DNA of 40,131 nucleotides from Candidatus Brocadiia bacterium (GTDB lineage Bacteria > Planctomycetota > MHYJ01 > JACQXL01 > JACQZI01): assembly GCA_020051675.1 (NCBI GenBank), contig JAGVQN010000037.1, positions 1-40,131 of the forward strand. The letters are read 5' to 3'. Positions 24,169 through 38,258 of the stretch are shown here, piece by piece. The translations under genes were made by a program, and so were the position numbers. The stretch's first letter is position 1; each line of letters starts with the position of its first letter. The notes under the pieces were generated by a model. The model made no database searches, had not been told where the DNA came from, and saw only the letters and a list, made by a program, of their open reading frames with translations.

Positions 24169-25878
24169 TTAAATTGTTCCCTGGAGAGCTTCGTCCATGG
24201 AGATTATTCCGGCGGCGACTTTTGCCAGGGCGTATTCGCGCAGTGTCTGCATGCCCAGCTCTACGGCTTTAATTTTTATCAAGTCGAAGGTGGCCGCTTT
24301 GGCAATCAGTTCTTTAATCGGGTCGCTTATGGTCATTACCTCCATGATGGAGGTTCGGCCTTTGGTGCCGAGCATATCGCAGCGCGAACAGCCGTTTGAC
24401 CGGAACAATTCCTTAGGCGGTTCCCGCAGGTTCTTGAAATACGGGAGCAGCGAGTTTGGCGTGGGATAAGGCTCTTTGCAGTTTTCGCATAACCTTCGCA
24501 GCAGGCGCTGGGCGATAATAATTTCCAAAGAAGAAGCGATAAGATAAGGCTCGCCGCCCATATTAATTAATCTCGAAATAGTGCCCGGCGCGTCATTCGT
24601 GTGGATGGTGCTTAAAACCAGATGGCCGGTAAGAGAGGCTTTTATGGCGATATCCAGGGTTTCCCTGTCCCGGATTTCCCCGATCATGACGACATCCGGG
24701 TCCTGGCGCAGGATGGATTTTAACGCGGCGGCAAAGGTTAATCCGGCATCGACATTGACATTGACCTGGTTAACCATGGACAGTTCATATTCGACCGGGT
24801 CTTCCACCGTGACGATATTCAAATCCGGCTTATTAATATGATTCAATGAGGCATAAAGCGTGGTGGTCTTGCCGCTGCCGGTCGGCCCGGTTACCAGTAT
24901 CAATCCGTAAGGCAATTCAATCGCCCGTTTTATCTGGCTGATAATATTATCGGAAAGCTGGAAATCGTCAAGCCGGAGGCTGATAGAGCTTTTATCAAGT
25001 ATGCGGATGACTATTTTTTCCCCGTGCCTTACCGGCAAAGAGGAAACCCGCAGGTCGACTTCGCGGTTTTCGAAGACGATTTTTATCTGGCCGTCCTGCG
25101 GCAGGCGCTTTTCGGAAATATCGAGTTTGGCCATTATTTTCAGGCGGGAAATAACCTGCAATTGGATTGATTTGGGGAGCGGCTCCTGCTCGACCAGCAT
25201 GCCGTCAATGCGGTACCTGACCCCGACCATTTTCGGGCGCGGCTCGATATGGATATCGCTGGCGCGTTTGCGCACGGCCGAGGCGATAATATGGTTAGCC
25301 AGTTTTATGATGGGGGTTTCGTCGATGAATACCGCCTGGCTTTTTTCGGTATTTTCCGGGGTGATGTTTATTTCGTAATTGCCGTCGGGTGATTTCGCAT
25401 CTTTATTCGGCCCGGATTCGGAAATAATCTGTTCGACGTTTACCTTATTGCTGTGGCAGCGGTTTATAGCTTCCATTATTTCGGATTCTTTTGCCAGGAC
25501 GGGGGTTATTTCGCATCCGCTTATCAAGGCGATTTCATCCATGGTGATAATGTTCAAGGGATCGGTCACCGCGACCGAAAGCGATTTGCCCGCCAGCGAG
25601 ATAGGGATGACTTTATATTTGCGGCATTTATCAGCCGGTATTTTATCAAGCGCCTCTTTATCTATCTGATAATCCTGCAGGCGGATTGCCGCGACCCCCA
25701 GGATGGTAATCAAAGCGCCGGTTAATTCCTCCTCGGAAAGTAATTTCAGCCCCAATAAAGCGTCTTTCAGCGAGATGTTTTTAAGCACCTGGTGTTCATA
25801 AGCTGAAAGGACCTGGTTTTCGGTTAAGAAACCTTCTTTAATCAAATCCTGCCCGAACTTTTTATCAGAAAGCAGCAT
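24169..25878 (-). CDS. GspE/PilB-type secretion or type IV pilus assembly ATPase
   Basis: Walker A GPTGSGKTTTLY, Asp/His boxes, ILRQDPDVVMIGEIRD, MshEN N-terminus, zinc site CENC...CSRC. Confidence 0.93.
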   Translation of the reverse strand: MLLSDKKFGQDLIKEGFLTENQVLSAYEHQVLKNISLKDALLGLKLLSEEELTGALITILGVAAIRLQDYQIDKEALDKIPADKCRKYKVIPISLAGKSLSVAVTDPLNIITMDEIALISGCEITPVLAKESEIMEAINRCHSNKVNVEQIISESGPNKDAKSPDGNYEINITPENTEKSQAVFIDETPIIKLANHIIASAVRKRASDIHIEPRPKMVGVRYRIDGMLVEQEPLPKSIQLQVISRLKIMAKLDISEKRLPQDGQIKIVFENREVDLRVSSLPVRHGEKIVIRILDKSSISLRLDDFQLSDNIISQIKRAIELPYGLILVTGPTGSGKTTTLYASLNHINKPDLNIVTVEDPVEYELSMVNQVNVNVDAGLTFAAALKSILRQDPDVVMIGEIRDRETLDIAIKASLTGHLVLSTIHTNDAPGTISRLINMGGEPYLIASSLEIIIAQRLLRRLCENCKEPYPTPNSLLPYFKNLREPPKELFRSNGCSRCDMLGTKGRTSIMEVMTISDPIKELIAKAATFDLIKIKAVELGMQTLREYALAKVAAGIISMDEALQGTI

Positions 25879-25886
25879 AATTATTA

Positions 25887-26792
25887 TTAAATTGAAGTAA
25901 AGAGGTTAAATTCGTCGTCCTGGACTTTCTCGGCCATTTTCGGCTTAATCCGGTTATCAAAATTCTTCCAGGTAAAAGATAAATTATTGCTTAACGAGCG
26001 CAAGGCGTGCCGGAATTCGTCATCGGTTACCGTGCAGGCGGCAGGCGCCGTTTCATCCTTAGGCTTTACCGGGCTGGGGGCGGTTTTATCAAACGGGATA
26101 TCCGAGACATGTATCCGGTCGCTTTGTTCCCTGGGCGGTTCTGCCGGGGCGGGTGCCGGCGCCATGGTTTTTGCCCTGGAAGATAAAATGGTTATTACTT
26201 CTTTAAATTCGCTCAGGCGGCAGATGACCGGCTTGACTTTATATCCGGTCAGGTTTTCCAAATTAGAGATGGAATCTTTGTTGTTCGGGTTTACCATGGC
26301 AACTATCAAAACCTTTCCGATTTTATCTATGGGCATCAGCTGGTTAGTTTCGATAAAAGACAAAGGGATTTCTTTAAGCAGTTCCTTAGGGACCATATGG
26401 GCGTTAATCTTGATATACGGCAGGCGGCTTTGCTGGGAGAGATAAGACACCAAGGTTTCTTCCGAAATCAGGTTCATTTCAATCAAGACCTCGCCGAGAA
26501 ATTTACGCGGCTTGGTTTGTTCCTGGACGGCCAGCGCTTTCTGAAGGGTTTCCCAGCTGATAAGCTTTGATTCGAGCAGCAATTCGCCTAATCTGGAATG
26601 TTCTTTCCCTTTTACGTGGATAAAAGTGGTTGCCGGTTTGGCCTGGGTTTCGCCGGCAGGCGGAACGGCCGCAGCCGGTTTCGGGTGTTTCGGCGGAGCG
26701 GACATGTTTTTTGGAGCGTGCGGCGGCTTCAGCGTTTTGAGAAGGGGCTTTTTCCCCTTTTCTTTCTTCTTAGAAAACAAGTTCCAGAACAT
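25887..26792 (-). CDS. MshEN (GspE N-terminal) domain protein, no ATPase domain
   Basis: LGELLLESKLISWETLQKALAVQEQ...LVSYLSQQSRLPYIKI...IPLSFIETNQLMPI; no Walker A. Confidence 0.8.
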   Translation of the reverse strand: MFWNLFSKKKEKGKKPLLKTLKPPHAPKNMSAPPKHPKPAAAVPPAGETQAKPATTFIHVKGKEHSRLGELLLESKLISWETLQKALAVQEQTKPRKFLGEVLIEMNLISEETLVSYLSQQSRLPYIKINAHMVPKELLKEIPLSFIETNQLMPIDKIGKVLIVAMVNPNNKDSISNLENLTGYKVKPVICRLSEFKEVITILSSRAKTMAPAPAPAEPPREQSDRIHVSDIPFDKTAPSPVKPKDETAPAACTVTDDEFRHALRSLSNNLSFTWKNFDNRIKPKMAEKVQDDEFNLFTSI

Positions 26793-26917: not shown

Positions 26918-28042
26918 ATGCCCAAGCCGGTTAAAAAGAATTTTTCTGAGCTGGTTGCCAAAAGAATCGGGAAGGATTCCAAGGAAGCAAGCGAGCTATT
27001 AAAAGGGCTGGCGGATGACATCATGGAAGAGCTTGCTTCAGGCAACGCGGTTTCCTGGCAAAACATGTTTTCGCTGCGGTTAGCCCAAAAACCGACCCGG
27101 ATGAAGCAGAACCCGCGAACAGGCAAAAAGGTCATTATTCCGCCCAGCCGGTCGATGCGGATAAAAATAGGCAAACAACTGAAGCTTGATTTAAATTCAA
27201 TGGTGCTTGCCAAAAACGTTGTTTTAATTTCCAAGAATGCCGGACAGTGGGATAAAATAAAGGAGCGGCTTGCCGGGCAGCGCGTTTTATGGACGAATAT
27301 CGGCTCCATCGAAGAATTGGAAAAGCAGGAACCGGTCCATGCCCACCTGGTTATTTTGGATTTTATGCCCGATAGCGATGAGTATGACCGGTTGATGGAG
27401 GCCATAAAACTGGGGAATAAGTTTTTCTCCGCGCGTGTTTTAGGCGTTATCAGTGATGGCCATGGCCTTAACGGATTCGAAGCGGCCAAGATAATGTGCG
27501 ACGAATGGGTCAGGATCCCGTTTGATGAAGCGGAGCCCGAAAACACAATCATGAATGAATTGGCAAGATTCGAGGAGGAAAACATCTTCTTTAAGTCGCG
27601 CATGGCTTTAAAATCGCCGTCCGACCACCCAAATATCGAGAAAGCCCTTGAAATGATCAGCCGCCTGGTTGAGCGCCTGCGTTTTCCCGAAGAAAAGCAT
27701 GCGGAGCTGGTTTCGGCGGTGACCGAAGCGGTGGATAATTCAGCCCGGCACGGCAACAACGGGGAAAAGGGGAAGTTTCTTCTTATAGAAATGATTGTTG
27801 ATTCGCAAAGATTTATTTGCCACCTGCATGATGAGGGGAAAGGCTTTGATTACGAAAAGCACCTTAAAAACGTTGTTGACATGGAATCCGCGCTGAAAAC
27901 TTCCAATCAACAGACGCCGACAAAGCATAAGGGCGGCGGATTGGGGATTCTTCTTATGCGCCGCATTATGGATGAGCTGATTTACACGCCTCCGGGAAAC
28001 AGGCTCAGCCTGGTTAAATATTTCAAGGGCAAAAAGAAATAA
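26918..28042 (+). CDS. Multidomain regulator: HU/IHF-like domain, receiver-like domain, RsbW-type HATPase
   Basis: HU-like NPRTGKKVIIPPSRSMRIKIGKQLK; middle domain with LVILDFMPDSDEYDRLMEAI; HATPase motifs EAVDNSARHG, DEGKGFD, GGGLGILLMRR. Confidence 0.8.
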   Translation: MPKPVKKNFSELVAKRIGKDSKEASELLKGLADDIMEELASGNAVSWQNMFSLRLAQKPTRMKQNPRTGKKVIIPPSRSMRIKIGKQLKLDLNSMVLAKNVVLISKNAGQWDKIKERLAGQRVLWTNIGSIEELEKQEPVHAHLVILDFMPDSDEYDRLMEAIKLGNKFFSARVLGVISDGHGLNGFEAAKIMCDEWVRIPFDEAEPENTIMNELARFEEENIFFKSRMALKSPSDHPNIEKALEMISRLVERLRFPEEKHAELVSAVTEAVDNSARHGNNGEKGKFLLIEMIVDSQRFICHLHDEGKGFDYEKHLKNVVDMESALKTSNQQTPTKHKGGGLGILLMRRIMDELIYTPPGNRLSLVKYFKGKKK

Positions 28043-28050
28043 AACCGTGT

Positions 28051-28953
28051 TTAAGCGGGCAGTTCTTTCGTCAGCCTTATGAGTTGCCCCTTGGGCGCGA
28101 GGGTGTTCAAGTCTATCTTGTCAATATTGGATTTGATTTTTTGATATTCAGGCCGGTTTAGCATTTCAGCGGAAAATAAAATCGTGTCGTAAATAACGAA
28201 GCCGATGATTAGTTTTTGTTTCTCAGAGATGATGACCAGCCGGTAGTTGCTGATTGATTTCCCGGTGTTATTTATCAGCGAGCAAACGGTCATGACCGCC
28301 GCGTTAATTTTTGAGATATCTTCTCCGTTGAAGTTTAACAGGAGCGCCTGGTTTTCAATCGTTGATTTAATCCATTCGCTGTTATCCGTATTGGTGGAGA
28401 GCCGCGCTTCAAGGATTTTAGGGACTTTTGACATGAAAGCCTTAACCGCGCCGGTTTCCTCGGCGGAAAAATAAGTGCTGCAATGGACACAACGGTATTT
28501 TCCGGGATGGGCTATTTCCAGGATTCCTTCGCATGACGGGCATTTGAATTTAGCCGGGTAATGCTGTTTGGTGATGGGCTTATAATTGGCTTTTTCGGTT
28601 ATATTGCCCAGGGCGTCTTTTTCGGAATCAAACATTTCCAGGGCCGACCCCAATCCGATAAGTTTAAATATCGCCCAGATCGAAGGCGGGATGCAGGCGA
28701 TTTGGATATCTCCACCGGCATCCCGGTATTTTTCCACATATTTGATCAGCAATCCCATTCCGCTGGAACTTATATAATTCAGCTCGGAAAGGTTGATAAT
28801 CAGCTGGTTAGTTCCTTCAGCCAGGAATTGAGAGAGATGCTGTTCAAAAGGCACAATCGTCGCCGCATCGATCCTGCCTTTCACCCGGCTGATTGCGCAA
28901 TAAGAATTATTCGGAAGGGCGAATTTTTCCGCTTTGAAGCTTAGGTTAGCCAT
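28051..28953 (-). CDS. STAS (anti-anti-sigma-like) protein with zinc ribbon and C-terminal extension
   Basis: LIINLSELNYISSSGMGLLIKYVEKYRDAGGDIQIA (STAS phospho-site); CPSC...CVHC zinc ribbon at residues 138-158. Confidence 0.85.
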   Translation of the reverse strand: MANLSFKAEKFALPNNSYCAISRVKGRIDAATIVPFEQHLSQFLAEGTNQLIINLSELNYISSSGMGLLIKYVEKYRDAGGDIQIACIPPSIWAIFKLIGLGSALEMFDSEKDALGNITEKANYKPITKQHYPAKFKCPSCEGILEIAHPGKYRCVHCSTYFSAEETGAVKAFMSKVPKILEARLSTNTDNSEWIKSTIENQALLLNFNGEDISKINAAVMTVCSLINNTGKSISNYRLVIISEKQKLIIGFVIYDTILFSAEMLNRPEYQKIKSNIDKIDLNTLAPKGQLIRLTKELPA

Positions 28954-31440: not shown

Positions 31441-32259
31441 ATGATAATAAAACCATATGGTATCATTTCCTTCATCCCGGCGCTGGCGGGATTCAGGATG
31501 TTCCTGCGTGTTCTAATCGCCTTTTTTCTCGCACTCATTATTTATCACTCAGGTGTTATTTATCCGCAAGGGGCTAAGCCTAAACTTCGGGAATTAACCA
31601 CGCCAAAATTATCCGTCGGCCAGTGGGCCTTATACGAAATTAATATCAGCAAGCATTCTCCATTGGGAAGCCGTTCTTATCTGTTTAAAATAAGCCTGAC
31701 AGGAGAAGAGCAAATAGAAGGCGAGCCGTATTTCTGGGAAGAGGTCTCGCTTATATCGGAAGGCGTATCTATTATAGCATTAAAGAAAAATACTTATGAT
31801 AAACCGCGGAAGGTTATTTTTAAGCGCGATGGTTTCCCGGCCCTGGAAATAGATCCCGCTGATATAGAACGCAAGCTGAAAATCGATATAAGCAATATTA
31901 TTCCGGGATTTATTGCGCCTGATATCGGTGTGAATACGGATGGAAATGTTTTAGGTTCCCGCCGCGACGGTACGTCGGGACGAGGCTCGCCAAAGGCGGC
32001 AACCGAAAAGGTAAAATATATCGTCCCAGCAAACAGCGAGAAAATAACATGCCGTGAGTTTACGTATAGCGATGGCCCTGAAAACCGCCAGGTTATCTCG
32101 CTGGTTTCGGATGATATCCCTATAATCGGGTTAGCTCAGTCAACATGCGTGGGCAGGGATTCTATTATTACAATCAAACTGGTGAACTTCGGTAATCGCG
32201 GGGCAAAGTCGGTTATCGATGGCAAGGTTTTAAAATTCGGTGAAATAAACAAACAATAA
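31441..32259 (+). CDS. Secreted hypothetical protein (start uncertain: 31441 or 31498)
   Basis: Hydrophobic N-terminus FLRVLIAFFLALIIYHSGVIY; its TAA at 32257-32259 overlaps the next start by one base. Confidence 0.65.
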   Translation: MIIKPYGIISFIPALAGFRMFLRVLIAFFLALIIYHSGVIYPQGAKPKLRELTTPKLSVGQWALYEINISKHSPLGSRSYLFKISLTGEEQIEGEPYFWEEVSLISEGVSIIALKKNTYDKPRKVIFKRDGFPALEIDPADIERKLKIDISNIIPGFIAPDIGVNTDGNVLGSRRDGTSGRGSPKAATEKVKYIVPANSEKITCREFTYSDGPENRQVISLVSDDIPIIGLAQSTCVGRDSIITIKLVNFGNRGAKSVIDGKVLKFGEINKQ

Positions 32260-35200
32260 TGAAAACCGGAAGACGTTCTAATGGGCTTTTTACCGGTGCG
32301 TGCCTGTGGCTGGCATTTATGCTGTTTGTTTTCCCGGCGGTTGCCGGCACACCTAATTTGGTTGAAATTATTTATAATTGGATTAAGCCGGAGTCTCCCG
32401 CTGTCGAGAAGTTTCATAATGCCTGCCTTGATTCCTTTGGGGATAAATGGGGGAATTATTACTTTACCGAACTGCAATATTACCGCCGGGCGCAATCCGT
32501 AATTAATACTTTGTACAGCGATATCGCAGGCGGCCCGGCTGGGTTAGGGAATGATATATCCGGTTATGATAAATTAAATAATCAAATTAACGAGATTACC
32601 CCTCAACATTATGTTAATGGGATGGCGGTTACACCTGAGCAGTTTCAACCCACGGATTATCCTGATTATAATGTTACGTACCATCAAAATACCCCGCAGG
32701 GTATTATCCAAATAAGCCGGGCGCATTTTAATAATATAGGCGAACCGATCGCCGGTATAACGGATGTTAAATATATTAAAAATGAAGAATTACTTTTAAA
32801 CCAGCCGGATAAAATTCCTTCGTCCATGACGTACATTGCGCAAGGCGCCGGTTATATCGTGAAAACGTCATTGATTCTTGTTGCCGGTGTTAGTTTAGCC
32901 TCTTTTATAACCAGCCGTGAAATAGAGAAAGAAACAAATAAGCCTCCGGTGGCTGGTTTTATTATTACTCCTCCCAGCGGAACTTTGACTACAATTTACG
33001 AGGCGAATGCGGAAAGTTCTTCTGACGAGGAAGATGATTTTCTCGATATTCTGCTTCAATACCGCTGGGATTGGGAAAACGACGGGGTTTGGGATACCGG
33101 CTGGGCAACCGTTGTTACCGCCACTCACCAGTACGCCTTCGGCGGCGATAAAACCATCAAGCTTGAAGTTATGGATAGTAAAGGCGCTGTTGCCTCTACC
33201 ACCAGGCTTCTTGGGGTGATAAGCGCGCCGATAGCTGTTTTTACGATTACGCCTACCGCCGGTGTTTTGAGCACGGTATTCCAGGTAAACGCTGAGGATT
33301 CTTATGATGTCGAGGATGATTTCAACGGCATTCCGCTTCAATACCAATGGGATTGGGAAGATGATGGTGTTATTGATATTGCTTGGACAACGGTAGCGAC
33401 CGCAACGCATCAATATGCCACTACCGGGAACAAGATATTAAGATTGAATGTAAAAGATGATGATGATAATTTTTCATCTGTTACCAAAATAGTTCCTGTC
33501 GGGGCGGCTTTAGGAAATACGCCATGGCCAAAATTCCGTTATAACTTAAAGCAAACCGGACAGGTGCCGGTGGTTGGAACAACAGAAGGGTCGGCAAAAT
33601 GGGAGCAAACATTTTTTACAAGTCCGGTTAATGGCTCTCCTTCCATAGGAATGGACGGGACTATTTATATCGGATGTGATGACCGCAGATTGTATGCTAT
33701 TCGCAGCACTAAGACAATAAGATGGAGCTACCTGGTCGGTAATATTATCCGTTCTGCGCCGGCGATAGATGACGAAGGCACTATATATTTTGGATGTAAT
33801 GACGGAAAGCTTTATGCGGTAAAAGATAATGCCTTTAGTGCTTCCGCTAAACCGGGATGGCCTTTTGTAACCGGTGCGCCGATAGTTTCCTCTCCCACGA
33901 TTAGCAATGACGGGATAATTTATGTCGGCTCTGATGATAGGAATCTTTATGCCATTACTTCAGGAGGAGCCCTTAAATGGTCTTTTCTTACCGGCGGTGA
34001 AATAAAAGGGTCGCCTGCTATCGGAGATGATGGAACAATATATACGGCGTCTTTTGACGGCAATTTATACGCGGTAAACGCCGATGGAACTCAAAAATGG
34101 AAGTATGAGACAATATCTCATGCTGCGATTTATTCATCACCGGCAATCGGGGCTGATGGAACCATCTATTTCGGAAGTTCCGATGGTTATTTATACGCGG
34201 TTAATGATAACGGCAGCGTATTGCCGCCGACTCTTAAATGGCGGTTTGATACAAAAGGGACTATTTTCTCGTCTCCGGCAATCGCTCCATCCGGAAGGAT
34301 TTATATTGGGACCAGCCCGCTTTTTTCAAGCGATGCAAGTATTTATGGCATTACAGATACGGGAGTGGCGCCAGTTGAGGTAATCAGCACTTCAACAGGG
34401 GCTGCTGTGCGGTCTGCTCCCGCTATAGATAGCCATGGCAATGTGTTTTTTACTTCGGATGACGGGAAAGTTTATATGGCTATGGGGCCTGATGGGTTTT
34501 GGTCTTATTCTTTTGCTCCCCCGGGAACAGAACTTATATCTTCCCCGGCAATCGGATCGAGTGGGGTTGTTTATGTCGGAGGCGCTAATCAAAACAGGGT
34601 CATTGCCATTGGATCTATTATTGACCCGGCAGATATCCAGATAACCAAAAAGGCCAATAAGCAAAAAGCCATGGTCGGGGATATCGTTACATATAAAGTT
34701 ACTATGGTTAATAGAGGAATTGATCCGACTTACATTCCCAATCCGACCCAGCTGATAGACCGCATCCCGCATGGGTTTAAATATGTAAAGGGTTCGAGCA
34801 TTTTAATGGACGGTGCCGGCAATATTACGCGCACCGATCCAAGCGGTATGGATACCAATATGCTTACATATGATGTCGGCTGGTTCGGGATAACGCCGAC
34901 CGCCACGACCAAGGTATTATCATATCAATTAGTCGTTGGGAGTGGTGTTTCCTTTGGTAAATACGAAAACCGCGCTTATGCCAGATATTGGTATAACAAG
35001 CCCCCGGTTACCGAAGGCGCTTCAAATATCGCACGCGAAGAAGTCCTGGTCGTGCCGGACCCGATATTCGACCTGGGCACGATTATCGGCAAGGTGTTTT
35101 ATGATAAAAACGGTAATGGCATTCAGGATCCCCCCTCCCCTTTCCCCTCCCACAGTGGGGAGGGGTTAGGGGAGGGTGAACCCGGTATTGCCGGTGCGAG

Positions 35201-38200
35201 AATCGTCATGGAAGACGGCACTATTATCACCACGGATAAAGACGGCAAATACCACGTGCCGGGAGTGGCGCCCGGAACGCATCTAATGCAAGTTTCCCTC
35301 CAAGGCGGGACGTCGTCCCCTGGAGGGGTCTCCGCAAGTGACAAGTTGCAAGTGAAAGGAATCCCTAAAATAGTGAGGGTAACCGAAGGGTTGTTATGCA
35401 AGGTAAATTTTCCTGTAAATTCCAAAGACTCTTCAGACTCCGGAGCAGCAGCGACGTCCCCGAAGCAAAGCGTAGAGGGATTACACTTATTAGTCTTAGG
35501 TGAAGGTATAGCGGGGCATAACCGGACCTCCGGTAATATTGATATCGTAAATACAAACAAAGTTAATGACGGATTTGATGACGGATTCACCGCCCGCGGG
35601 AGATTGGCATATTATATGTCAGGCACGTATAATAAAGACTATACGATTACTTCATCGTTCGACAGCAAGCGCGATAGATATCGGGTGATGTCGCGCTATA
35701 TCGACCCGGATAAATACTACCCGATATACGGTGATGATTCAAGCGTGGCATGGGACGCGATCAATACGCAAGGGTTATTCTATTTATCCGCCGGGCATAC
35801 GCCTTCGGCATCACAATTAGTGGTCGGCAACTACCAGACAGACCTGGCTTATAACGAGCTCTTTGCCTATAACCGCACCCTTTACGGAGCCAAGATGGGG
35901 TTGAATACTAATGGTAACAAGGATAATTATCTTTTGATACCCAAGACAGAAGTAAAACTATTCGGAGCCAGGGCATATCAGGTGGCGGCGCACAATGAAT
36001 TCCGCGCCACGGGCGGCTCGTTCTATTACTTGAAACACAAAAACGTGATAGAAGGAAGCGAGCAGGTAAAGCTCATCTCACGCGACCAGCTGACCAATCT
36101 TTCCATCCAAACTATTACCAAGGTTAGAGGGGTTGATTACGAGATAGATTATGATATGGGTTGCATCATATTTAAACAGGTAATTAATTCAGTTGACCCG
36201 TCAGGCAGTATTATATCAACTAATATCCTAAGCGGCAACGGGATGTATATCGTCGTGGATTACGAATACGAGCCTGACCGGACGCATTTCAATGAAGGCG
36301 TCTACGGAGGACGTGTCGCCTATTCACCGGTTGATTCCGTAACCATCGGTACCGGCTATGTATCCGAGGAAGAGCTTGATAAGGATTATACCTTGGGTGG
36401 TGCGGATTTGACGGTAAAACTGCCGCTTGAAACCAAGGTCAAGGCGGAATATGCCCAGTCGGAATCGCGCGGTATTCCGAACTATGTTTCGCTTAACGGA
36501 GGATTGACCTTCAATGAAGTGACTGATTTATCATCTTCAGAGGGCAGCGCCTATTATATCAAGGCGGACTCCAAGCCGGTTGATAATATAACCACGGATG
36601 TCTATTACCAGCGCCTGCGCCCCGGCTTTATGTCATCCAATTCGGTAATACAGCAGGGCACGGCAAAATACGGAACGGCTATTTCAAGCCGCATTACCGA
36701 CAGTTTAAACCTGAACGTAAGATACGATGTTCAGGAATTACTCAAGAATTACAACCTTGTTTCAGGCGCATTGGTCGGCGGAGATAAGACCGAGGTAACC
36801 AGCCTGCATGGCAATTATAATATGACTAAAAAGCTCACCATTTCCGGAGAATATCGCTACCAGAGCGTAGAAAATAAACTATTCAATATTACCAGCGAGA
36901 CAAACTCAGATACGGCATTGGGCGCAATCAGGGCGAATTATGCCTTGAGCCAGCGTATTAGTATGTATATGTCCCAGCAGACGACCTTTAAAGGGCCGAC
37001 CAATCACCAGACGAGTTTGGGCTCAACCGTTATATTATTGGATTCCGCCAAACCCCGAACGCGTTCGGGGTCCGGCGGAAATCTGTCCGGCAATATCCAG
37101 GGTACCAGCGGCACGACCGGCAATTCGGCTTTATTAGGTTTGAGCTCTGTTAACAAGGTAGGCGAGAAAACGCAGTTAACATCAGGTTTTAGTTATGGCG
37201 TTACACAGGATACAAACAATGATAAGACCAGAACCGCCGCGACTACGGCCGGAGTATCAAGCCAGGTAACGGATTCGACCAGATTATATGCATCAAAACA
37301 ATATCAAATAATATCCGGCGGAGCGAAGCGAAGTCCCGATGAACATCGGGGCGGCGCGGTATCGACCGCCGATGCCATCGGCCAGGATACGAATTTGGCC
37401 AAGAATTGGATTGTCGGATGCACCTTTGAAAGAGGTGTGTTAAATAACTTCGATGGAACGGAAACGGTCAGGAAGAATGCCTCTCTTTCTTTGGGAACGA
37501 GAGGCATACCGGATTTAAAACTGTCAAGCCGGGTTGAAGGAAGGATAGATAGCGGAGACGCAACGGATAGGAAACAATATACCACTGCCAATGATGTCAC
37601 TTATAAGCTGACAAAGGATATTTCGATTCTTGGGCGATTAAACTGGTCAAGAACGGAAAACGCCCTTAGGTCCCGAGACCTTCAAAGTCTCGGGAAAAGC
37701 GCCTACCAAACGGAATCATTGTTTAAGGAAGCCGGTTTCGGATTTGCTTTAAGGCCGGTAAAATGGGATGACCTTAATATCATTGCCAAATACACCCATT
37801 TGATAGACCATCATCCCCTGAACCAATCGCTTAGCTCTGGTTCAGGGCAAGCCCTTGACCCATTAGATATTACTAAGGAAAGGGCGACGGTATATTCGCT
37901 GGAAGGGATATATGATTTCGCATTATTCCAGCTGGTTGGCAAATACGCCTTTAAGAACGGCCAGGAAAAGGTCGGTCCGCGCGATTATACGGATAGCGAC
38001 ACATCGTTGTGGTTGAGCCGGATTAATTATCACATCATAAGCAACGTGGATGCGGGATTAGAGTACCGCATGCTTAAGCAGGAACTGGCGGATGATAAGA
38101 AGTCAGGGATACTGGTGGAAGGGATGTATAAGTTTAACGACTACGCCTATATCGGAATCGGATATAATTTCACCGATTTTACCGACGACCTGATAAATGA

Positions 38201-38258
38201 CAATGATTATACTATAAAAGGCCCCTTTATCCGCTTTGTCGGGACATTCAGCAGGTAA
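32259..38258 (+). CDS. Giant surface protein: signal peptide, 2 PKD-like, PQQ-like propeller, DUF11, SdrD-B-like, C-terminal outer-membrane beta-barrel
   Basis: PKD-like RWDWENDGVWDTGW/QWDWEDDGVIDIAW; PQQ-like repeats (GTIYIGCDDRRLYAI...); DUF11 (ADIQITKKANKQKAMVGDIVTYKVTMVNRG); SdrD-B (IIGKVFYDKNGNGIQD...GEPGIAGARIVMEDG); long beta-strand-rich C-terminus. Confidence 0.85.
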   Translation: MKTGRRSNGLFTGACLWLAFMLFVFPAVAGTPNLVEIIYNWIKPESPAVEKFHNACLDSFGDKWGNYYFTELQYYRRAQSVINTLYSDIAGGPAGLGNDISGYDKLNNQINEITPQHYVNGMAVTPEQFQPTDYPDYNVTYHQNTPQGIIQISRAHFNNIGEPIAGITDVKYIKNEELLLNQPDKIPSSMTYIAQGAGYIVKTSLILVAGVSLASFITSREIEKETNKPPVAGFIITPPSGTLTTIYEANAESSSDEEDDFLDILLQYRWDWENDGVWDTGWATVVTATHQYAFGGDKTIKLEVMDSKGAVASTTRLLGVISAPIAVFTITPTAGVLSTVFQVNAEDSYDVEDDFNGIPLQYQWDWEDDGVIDIAWTTVATATHQYATTGNKILRLNVKDDDDNFSSVTKIVPVGAALGNTPWPKFRYNLKQTGQVPVVGTTEGSAKWEQTFFTSPVNGSPSIGMDGTIYIGCDDRRLYAIRSTKTIRWSYLVGNIIRSAPAIDDEGTIYFGCNDGKLYAVKDNAFSASAKPGWPFVTGAPIVSSPTISNDGIIYVGSDDRNLYAITSGGALKWSFLTGGEIKGSPAIGDDGTIYTASFDGNLYAVNADGTQKWKYETISHAAIYSSPAIGADGTIYFGSSDGYLYAVNDNGSVLPPTLKWRFDTKGTIFSSPAIAPSGRIYIGTSPLFSSDASIYGITDTGVAPVEVISTSTGAAVRSAPAIDSHGNVFFTSDDGKVYMAMGPDGFWSYSFAPPGTELISSPAIGSSGVVYVGGANQNRVIAIGSIIDPADIQITKKANKQKAMVGDIVTYKVTMVNRGIDPTYIPNPTQLIDRIPHGFKYVKGSSILMDGAGNITRTDPSGMDTNMLTYDVGWFGITPTATTKVLSYQLVVGSGVSFGKYENRAYARYWYNKPPVTEGASNIAREEVLVVPDPIFDLGTIIGKVFYDKNGNGIQDPPSPFPSHSGEGLGEGEPGIAGARIVMEDGTIITTDKDGKYHVPGVAPGTHLMQVSLQGGTSSPGGVSASDKLQVKGIPKIVRVTEGLLCKVNFPVNSKDSSDSGAAATSPKQSVEGLHLLVLGEGIAGHNRTSGNIDIVNTNKVNDGFDDGFTARGRLAYYMSGTYNKDYTITSSFDSKRDRYRVMSRYIDPDKYYPIYGDDSSVAWDAINTQGLFYLSAGHTPSASQLVVGNYQTDLAYNELFAYNRTLYGAKMGLNTNGNKDNYLLIPKTEVKLFGARAYQVAAHNEFRATGGSFYYLKHKNVIEGSEQVKLISRDQLTNLSIQTITKVRGVDYEIDYDMGCIIFKQVINSVDPSGSIISTNILSGNGMYIVVDYEYEPDRTHFNEGVYGGRVAYSPVDSVTIGTGYVSEEELDKDYTLGGADLTVKLPLETKVKAEYAQSESRGIPNYVSLNGGLTFNEVTDLSSSEGSAYYIKADSKPVDNITTDVYYQRLRPGFMSSNSVIQQGTAKYGTAISSRITDSLNLNVRYDVQELLKNYNLVSGALVGGDKTEVTSLHGNYNMTKKLTISGEYRYQSVENKLFNITSETNSDTALGAIRANYALSQRISMYMSQQTTFKGPTNHQTSLGSTVILLDSAKPRTRSGSGGNLSGNIQGTSGTTGNSALLGLSSVNKVGEKTQLTSGFSYGVTQDTNNDKTRTAATTAGVSSQVTDSTRLYASKQYQIISGGAKRSPDEHRGGAVSTADAIGQDTNLAKNWIVGCTFERGVLNNFDGTETVRKNASLSLGTRGIPDLKLSSRVEGRIDSGDATDRKQYTTANDVTYKLTKDISILGRLNWSRTENALRSRDLQSLGKSAYQTESLFKEAGFGFALRPVKWDDLNIIAKYTHLIDHHPLNQSLSSGSGQALDPLDITKERATVYSLEGIYDFALFQLVGKYAFKNGQEKVGPRDYTDSDTSLWLSRINYHIISNVDAGLEYRMLKQELADDKKSGILVEGMYKFNDYAYIGIGYNFTDFTDDLINDNDYTIKGPFIRFVGTFSR
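35133..35176. repeat. Palindrome within CDS: CCCTCCCCT-TT-CCCCTCCC...GGGAGGGG-TT-AGGGGAGGG
   Basis: 9+8-bp arms, encodes PSPFPSHSGEGLGEG. Confidence 0.85.
37043..37080. repeat. Palindrome within CDS: TTCCGCC..CCCCGAACGCGTTCGGGG..GGCGGAA
   Basis: Nested perfect arms; encodes SAKPRTRSGSGG. Confidence 0.8.
37335..37350. repeat. Palindrome within CDS: CCCGATG-AA-CATCGGG
   Basis: 7-bp stem preceded by the dispersed string GGAGCGAAGCGA; encodes part of SGGAKRSPDEHRGG. Confidence 0.7.
37672..37694. repeat. Palindrome within CDS: CCCGAGAC-CTTCAAA-GTCTCGGG
   Basis: 8-bp perfect stem; encodes RSRDLQSLGK. Confidence 0.75.
37816..37847. repeat. Palindrome within CDS: CCCTGAACCA...TGGTTCAGGG
   Basis: 10-bp perfect stem; encodes PLNQSLSSGSG. 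Confidence 0.75.

Follow-up and report, generated by a model that had tools for sequence, protein, structure and literature searches.

A planctomycetal protein family joining an HU domain, a probably inactive receiver and an RsbW-type serine kinase, with linked STAS and MshEN neighbors

In a 40,131-nucleotide stretch of a Candidatus Brocadiia bacterium genome (contig JAGVQN010000037.1 of GCA_020051675.1; hereafter the window), we confirmed that one gene product, P0001, carries an HU domain truly fused, via a probably inactive receiver, to an anti-sigma-type serine kinase. This HU-receiver-kinase fusion is a design kept across much of Planctomycetota. We consider it moderately likely that P0001 acts as an HU-anchored partner-switch (RsbW-type) serine kinase that phosphorylates a STAS partner. 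The features of the locus are collected in Table 1. Elsewhere in the window, both on the plus strand, lie genes for a 344-aa protein built of AVTSEKLQ-type repeats (437-1471) and for a 1999-aa protein with repeated segments that look PKD-like and PQQ-like by eye (32259-38258).

Table 1. Features of the HU-receiver-kinase locus, in window coordinates
Feature	Position	Strand	Basis or remark
MshEN + T2SSE (GspE/PilB-like) ATPase	24169..25878	-	L105/L023 and L119 likewise have it next to the MshEN gene
MshEN protein without ATPase, divergent neighbor (125 bp)	25887..26792	-	in most relatives, its orthologs immediately precede the kinase gene
HU - pseudo-receiver - RsbW-type kinase, 374 aa (P0001)	26918..28042	+	ORF, Pfam, AlphaFold2, Foldseek
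HU/IHF domain, residues ~6-93, arm motif QNPRTG	26933..27196	+	PF00216, own-genome family search, model, arm charge
Probable pseudo-receiver, residues ~97-225; retains D148 but neither the Lys nor the Thr/Ser	27206..27592	+	alignment, model, Foldseek
Serine-kinase domain (HATPase_c_2), residues 236-367, with intact N, G1 and G2 boxes	27623..28018	+	Pfam, alignment
STAS (~5-122) - zinc ribbon (C138, C141, C155, C158) - degenerate HATPase_c_2 (~179-297)	28051..28953	-	profile, alignment, AlphaFold, Foldseek

The P0001 reading frame runs from ATG to stop without an internal stop. Residues 6-93 match the Pfam family Bac_DNA_binding (PF00216; 58 bits, E 1.1e-15, curated cut-off 22.4) and residues 236-367 match HATPase_c_2 (PF13581; 69.7 bits, E 3e-19, cut-off 27.4). 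The segment between them has no receiver match in Pfam at E<=0.1, and the receiver profile PF00072 gives weak scores in some relatives. In an AlphaFold2 model built with 35 family sequences (pLDDT 86.5, pTM 0.76), HU topology at residues 9-94 (alpha-alpha-beta-beta-arm-beta-alpha, TM to HU chains up to 0.86) is followed by a receiver of beta-alpha type at residues 99-221, and residues 225-368 adopt a Bergerat fold. A Foldseek search of the PDB ranked the receiver-Bergerat protein LvrC first, then SpoIIAB/RsbW and many HU/IHF chains, with target TM values of 0.7-0.86 for most matches. Pfam, AlphaFold2 and Foldseek agree on the three-domain reading proposed in the initial annotation, whose domain limits (1-95, ~97-225 and a C-terminal kinase) were correct to within a few residues; structure prediction, which it had named as a check, does give the N-terminus an HU fold.

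The kinase boxes had been described as intact, and across 61 relatives they are near-invariant: E270, N274 and H278 of the N box are kept in 61/61, and D305, G307, G309 and F310 of the G1 box and the GGLG of the G2 box in 60-61. The N (ExxxN), G1 (DxGxGF) and G2 (GxGLG) signatures within a HATPase_c_2 fold place the domain among RsbW/SpoIIAB-type kinases, as does a nearby STAS domain that keeps its Ser/Thr. The receiver has the PF00072 fold and lacks the complete set of acidic pair, Asp, Thr/Ser and Lys. Its phosphoacceptor D148 is present in 59 of the 61 relatives; the Lys position holds E, Q, D or I in every one, and the Thr/Ser position is taken by a hydrophobic or aromatic residue. Because the Lys and Thr/Ser are lost, this domain is probably a non-phosphorylatable adaptor, or pseudo-receiver, in keeping with the degenerate receiver first suggested.

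An ordinary anti-sigma factor that acquired its N-terminal fusion by chance or through misassembly might be suspected, given how common HU and RsbW domains are and given that the genome of P0001 is an incomplete planctomycetal MAG (57% complete). We give this explanation practically no credence. A genome of the same order, G007, encodes a full-length relative 47% identical to P0001, and dozens of independent genomes carry the complete architecture, among them the single-contig chromosome of Candidatus Uabimicrobium amorphum; together, these observations refute an assembly accident. P0001 is absent from G001, a near-complete (97%) genome of the same genus. Scanning genome contigs with P0001 alone gave no match, and a family alignment (A1) was required. 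In an alignment of 12 relatives, all 12 of which match both PF00216 and HATPase_c_2, we had a query that recovered 68 loci from the GTDB genome set. The strong matches were nearly all titled Planctomycetota, and the weak matches outside this phylum covered the kinase part only. Among 392 Planctomycetota genomes, 113 match the family alignment at E<=1e-30, with many matches spanning HU to C-terminus and others the receiver and kinase only. We found no full-length match in 297 Acidobacteriota genomes, which held a single partial match over the receiver end and the kinase, and none at E<=1e-25 in 297 Desulfobacterota genomes, an absence that is suggestive only, as that search had no positive control.

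The receiver-kinase core is common to all 61 distinct proteins in the comparison, nearly all of which are titled Planctomycetota, and 45 of them carry one or two HU copies. Their N-terminal forms comprise 15 with a single HU, 30 with tandem HU, 9 with STAS in place of HU and 7 reduced, meaning that there is no arm or no clear HU; in 20 of the 30 tandem proteins the profile picked out the first copy separately, and we classed the others from their length and alignment. A tree of the core requires just 4 changes among these N-terminal forms, and the proteins with STAS in place of HU occupy one side of a well-supported branch (98/92). A long branch (2.35) carries a divergent pair, the window protein and its relative L105, which makes their exact position uncertain and means that the function of the window clade may have shifted. 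At nine loci (L054, L055, L057, L058, L060, L062, L064, L065 and L087), tandem-HU kinase genes lie upstream of MraZ-like/MraW-like genes, which we named by eye as a cell-division cluster; several of these kinase genes also lie downstream of a pheT-like gene.

The gene that converges on the P0001 gene encodes the STAS protein of Table 1. Its relatives align over the whole length, and the four Cys, the STAS glycines and S63 (16/16 aligned) are invariant. The AlphaFold model (pLDDT 86.9) contains the STAS domain, the ribbon and a third domain, whose relative placement is unsure because the pTM is 0.46. The PDB structures that Foldseek matched to the third domain include both RsbW/SpoIIAB and STAS chains, and homologs score up to 33 bits against HATPase_c_2. 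We rejected a plain anti-anti-sigma identity for this protein, since its STAS domain is accompanied by a zinc ribbon and by a domain with a degenerate kinase fold. The STAS-zinc-ribbon-pseudokinase family occurs in 94/392 Planctomycetota genomes at E<=1e-25 and has no Pfam or NCBIfam name for the whole protein.

Kinase and STAS partner tend to be found together. In the Planctomycetota sample, the partner is encoded in 53/67 kinase-bearing genomes versus 18/325 others (Fisher p 9e-37, a value that overstates independence because genomes share ancestry); the kinase list for this comparison held 69 full-length matches and 3 that start at profile positions 93-99. Where the two genes lie within 400 bp, as they do for 21 kinase genes, the partner is always on the downstream side, in 4 cases convergent, as in the window, and in 17 co-directional. 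The STAS linkage, together with the occurrence in a sister clade of STAS fused to this core, makes the neighbor the predicted substrate or partner of the HU kinase, a pairing that we regard as the best-supported step of the mechanism proposed below. Eleven genomes of one family, f18 (G031, G061, G080, G096, G111, G139, G153, G166, G187, G197 and G207), have the STAS-zinc partner without a full-length HU-receiver-kinase, and several of the f18 genomes show no more than an RsbW-like match over profile positions ~204-365.

On its other side, the kinase gene usually adjoins a gene for an MshEN protein. This is so in 57/65 loci, in 54 of them on the same strand and immediately upstream; of the 8 loci without such a neighbor, 2 end at a contig edge, and three pairs among the loci are near-duplicates. 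The arrangement is divergent in the window and in its relative, for which two records cover one gene. In four genomes of one family (G076, G175, G150 and G093), the order MshEN - HU kinase - STAS - MshEN runs along one strand, and Candidatus Uabimicrobium amorphum encodes the kinase and MshEN proteins as well as STAS relatives. In the window, L105/L023 and L119, the MshEN gene is followed by one for an MshEN-T2SSE assembly ATPase. At L088, L089, L091-L093, L102, L112-L115 and L118, the gene just past the STAS gene encodes a second MshEN protein, which is longer and has a low-complexity tail. Very large Ser/Thr protein kinases (up to ~1,400 aa) are encoded next to the module at L112, L113, L114, L118, L066/L120 and L047, that of Uabimicrobium with WD40 repeats; a large Ser/Thr kinase is near only 7/65 loci, and we rejected it as part of the core module.

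The MshEN c-di-GMP receptor is defined by two 24-residue RLGxx...LxxxLxxQ motifs (PMC5013675). None of the 57 MshEN neighbors has the strict motif and 13 have a relaxed version. The window protein at 25887-26792 keeps most of the motif positions, but motif I (RLGELLLESKLISWETLQKALAVQ) has Lys replacing Gly and motif II (FLGEVLIEMNLISEETLVSYLSQQ) has Phe in place of Arg; the spacer is 7 rather than 5. Motif II is eroded in most of the ATPase-less MshEN neighbors. The 25887-26792 protein is perhaps a c-di-GMP receptor, and many MshEN neighbors may no longer bind the nucleotide. As no strict motif occurs among the 57, a c-di-GMP step would be a weak part of any model of this locus.

How does P0001 relate to systems already described? 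HU and IHF nucleoid proteins are stand-alone proteins of ~90 aa. The HU domain of P0001 shares their fold and NPxTG arm, whereas it is embedded in a 374-aa protein and, across the family, is often duplicated or armless. RsbW and SpoIIAB are likewise single-domain proteins; they resemble P0001 in the kinase fold, the N, G1 and G2 boxes and an RsbV/SpoIIAA-like STAS partner with a conserved Ser, while the multidomain P0001 falls far below the NCBIfam equivalog cut-offs for RsbW (43.6 versus 145) and SpoIIAB (34.5 versus 135). LvrC of Leptospira (PDB 9QIH) is a receiver-Bergerat anti-sigma response regulator whose canonical receiver is phosphorylated by LvrB (PMC13269768). It is the top Foldseek match over the receiver-kinase part of P0001 (E 2.6e-13), and in both proteins the receiver lies directly N-terminal to the RsbW-type/Bergerat domain. 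However, LvrC has a working receiver and no HU, whereas P0001 has lost the key receiver residues needed to be of the phosphorylatable LvrC type and carries HU in front. No histidine kinase that might feed the receiver came to light beside P0001, in searches of the neighborhood not aimed at one in particular. CapK, an HTH-STAS-GHKL kinase, is directly activated by single-stranded DNA and phosphorylates a STAS partner, CapS, a STAS-wHTH DNA-binding repressor; the pair is encoded beside immune operons (PMC13373217). Like P0001, CapK sets an N-terminal module of DNA-contacting type on a GHKL serine kinase, with the STAS partner encoded adjacently. The two nonetheless belong to separate groups: CapK has HTH and STAS where P0001 has HU and a receiver, CapS is a DNA-binding repressor in contrast to the STAS-zinc-ribbon-pseudokinase partner of P0001, and CapK/CapS lacks MshEN. 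Because of CapK, a DNA-sensing RsbW-type kinase is no longer without precedent (PMC13373217). SypE of Vibrio fischeri is a receiver-containing RsbW-type kinase that acts on a STAS partner, SypA, with no sigma factor output established (PMC3610818). Its receiver is central, between kinase and phosphatase domains, and SypE is not known to contain HU.

The open-access journal literature searched yielded no description of an HU plus HATPase_c_2 architecture. Partner-switch kinases are already known; the HU form and the three-part module appear new. The novelty suggested in the initial annotation survives to this extent, with the correction that the fusion is not a one-off. It belongs to a Planctomycetota-wide family with single, tandem and armless HU and STAS-for-HU forms.

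The coupling of STAS/kinase signaling to DNA binding, also suggested at the outset, holds up unevenly. Its STAS link is strongly supported, with the STAS family directly downstream in 21 genomes, while the DNA-binding half depends on the clade. The arm of P0001 has a net charge of +11 and the tip QNPRTG; L105 (+10) and Candidatus Uabimicrobium amorphum (+12) share the NPRTG tip, and genuine HU arms range from +6 to +12 (six proteins of G000, the genome of P0001, and of the related G001, G007 and G105). With an arm as basic as that of genuine HU, DNA binding by the HU module is likely in the window clade, and it is plausible in Uabimicrobium. Most relatives lack the combination of basic arm and RNPxTG tip: their arms carry net charges of -2 to +7, no more than 24/61 family members retain the Pro at the arm tip, and one clade has only an armless HU remnant. 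DNA binding is thus doubtful for most of the family and would not be its general role; the HU of neutral-arm or armless relatives may serve only for dimerizing or docking. Extended to the whole family, this idea would make HU a dimerization or docking module throughout, on a soluble partner-switch kinase whose input comes solely from MshEN and other proteins. The near-neutral arms point that way, as do weak matches of some members to the HU-CCDC81 and HU-HIG profiles and the replacement of HU by STAS in another clade, part of which retains the MshEN neighbor. Set against the strongly basic, NPRTG-tipped arms of the window protein, L105 and Uabimicrobium, we find it a possible account that we lean away from. 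A further alternative makes DNA the input, such that DNA on the N-terminal module would activate the kinase, as in CapK, and report DNA damage or nucleoid state. The overall plan is indeed that of CapK (DNA-binding module, GHKL kinase, STAS partner), but HU is a duplex- and bend-binding fold rather than an HTH, the basic arm is lost in most relatives, and we saw no defense or repair genes beside the module. This alternative therefore seems improbable. PADLOC gave no match for P0001 or the MshEN protein, and we rejected a defense-system reading.

Our preferred reading, a partner-switch kinase with an HU anchor, could work as follows. P0001 would dimerize through its HU and kinase domains, both of which dimerize in known structures, and the dimer may be held on duplex or bent DNA by its basic HU arms in the window clade. 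The conserved linkage suggests that the pseudo-receiver passes on a protein signal from the neighboring MshEN protein. The kinase would then phosphorylate the conserved Ser/Thr pair in the STAS domain of the 28051-28953 protein, a step predicted from conserved adjacency, STAS fusion in the sister clade, the intact kinase and the kept Ser. Phosphorylation would determine whether the STAS protein associates with the kinase or with a target, which may be a sigma factor or a pilus/secretion ATPase. The genome encodes 3 GGDEF proteins, 1 SpoIIE-type phosphatase and several sigma factors. We looked for a linked sigma factor and saw none beside the module; 9 sigma-70 region-2 matches lie elsewhere in the genome. 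The SpoIIE-type phosphatase gene lies beside a different RsbW-type gene on contig C94 (G000:C94:13958-15039), and this separate pair is a second partner-switch in the same genome. A non-transcriptional output, in which the STAS/kinase pair controls a GspE/PilB-type assembly ATPase of pili or secretion via MshEN proteins, would fit the missing sigma neighbor, the MshEN proteins that flank the module in nearly all loci and the MshEN-T2SSE gene at three of them, and SypE/SypA offers a parallel that controls a process other than a sigma factor. Yet the neighboring MshEN proteins lack an ATPase domain in most genomes and we saw no pilus operon beside the MshEN genes, leaving this output rather unlikely. 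We hold modest hopes for the fullest version of the preferred reading: it is unlikely, on present evidence, that a Planctomycetota-specific module joins a nucleoid-anchored kinase, a c-di-GMP-responsive MshEN protein acting via the pseudo-receiver and a STAS partner so as to read both a second messenger and the state of the chromosome.

Planctomycetota signaling is poorly explored, and this module offers a linked kinase, predicted substrate and predicted input, found in at least one complete named genome, that of Candidatus Uabimicrobium amorphum. If the HU module does not bind DNA, the family would be a clear example of HU having been remade, within bacteria, as a module for protein interactions. 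If it does bind DNA, anti-sigma-type switching would be physically tied to the chromosome and, together with CapK, DNA-contacting RsbW kinases would be a recurring theme.
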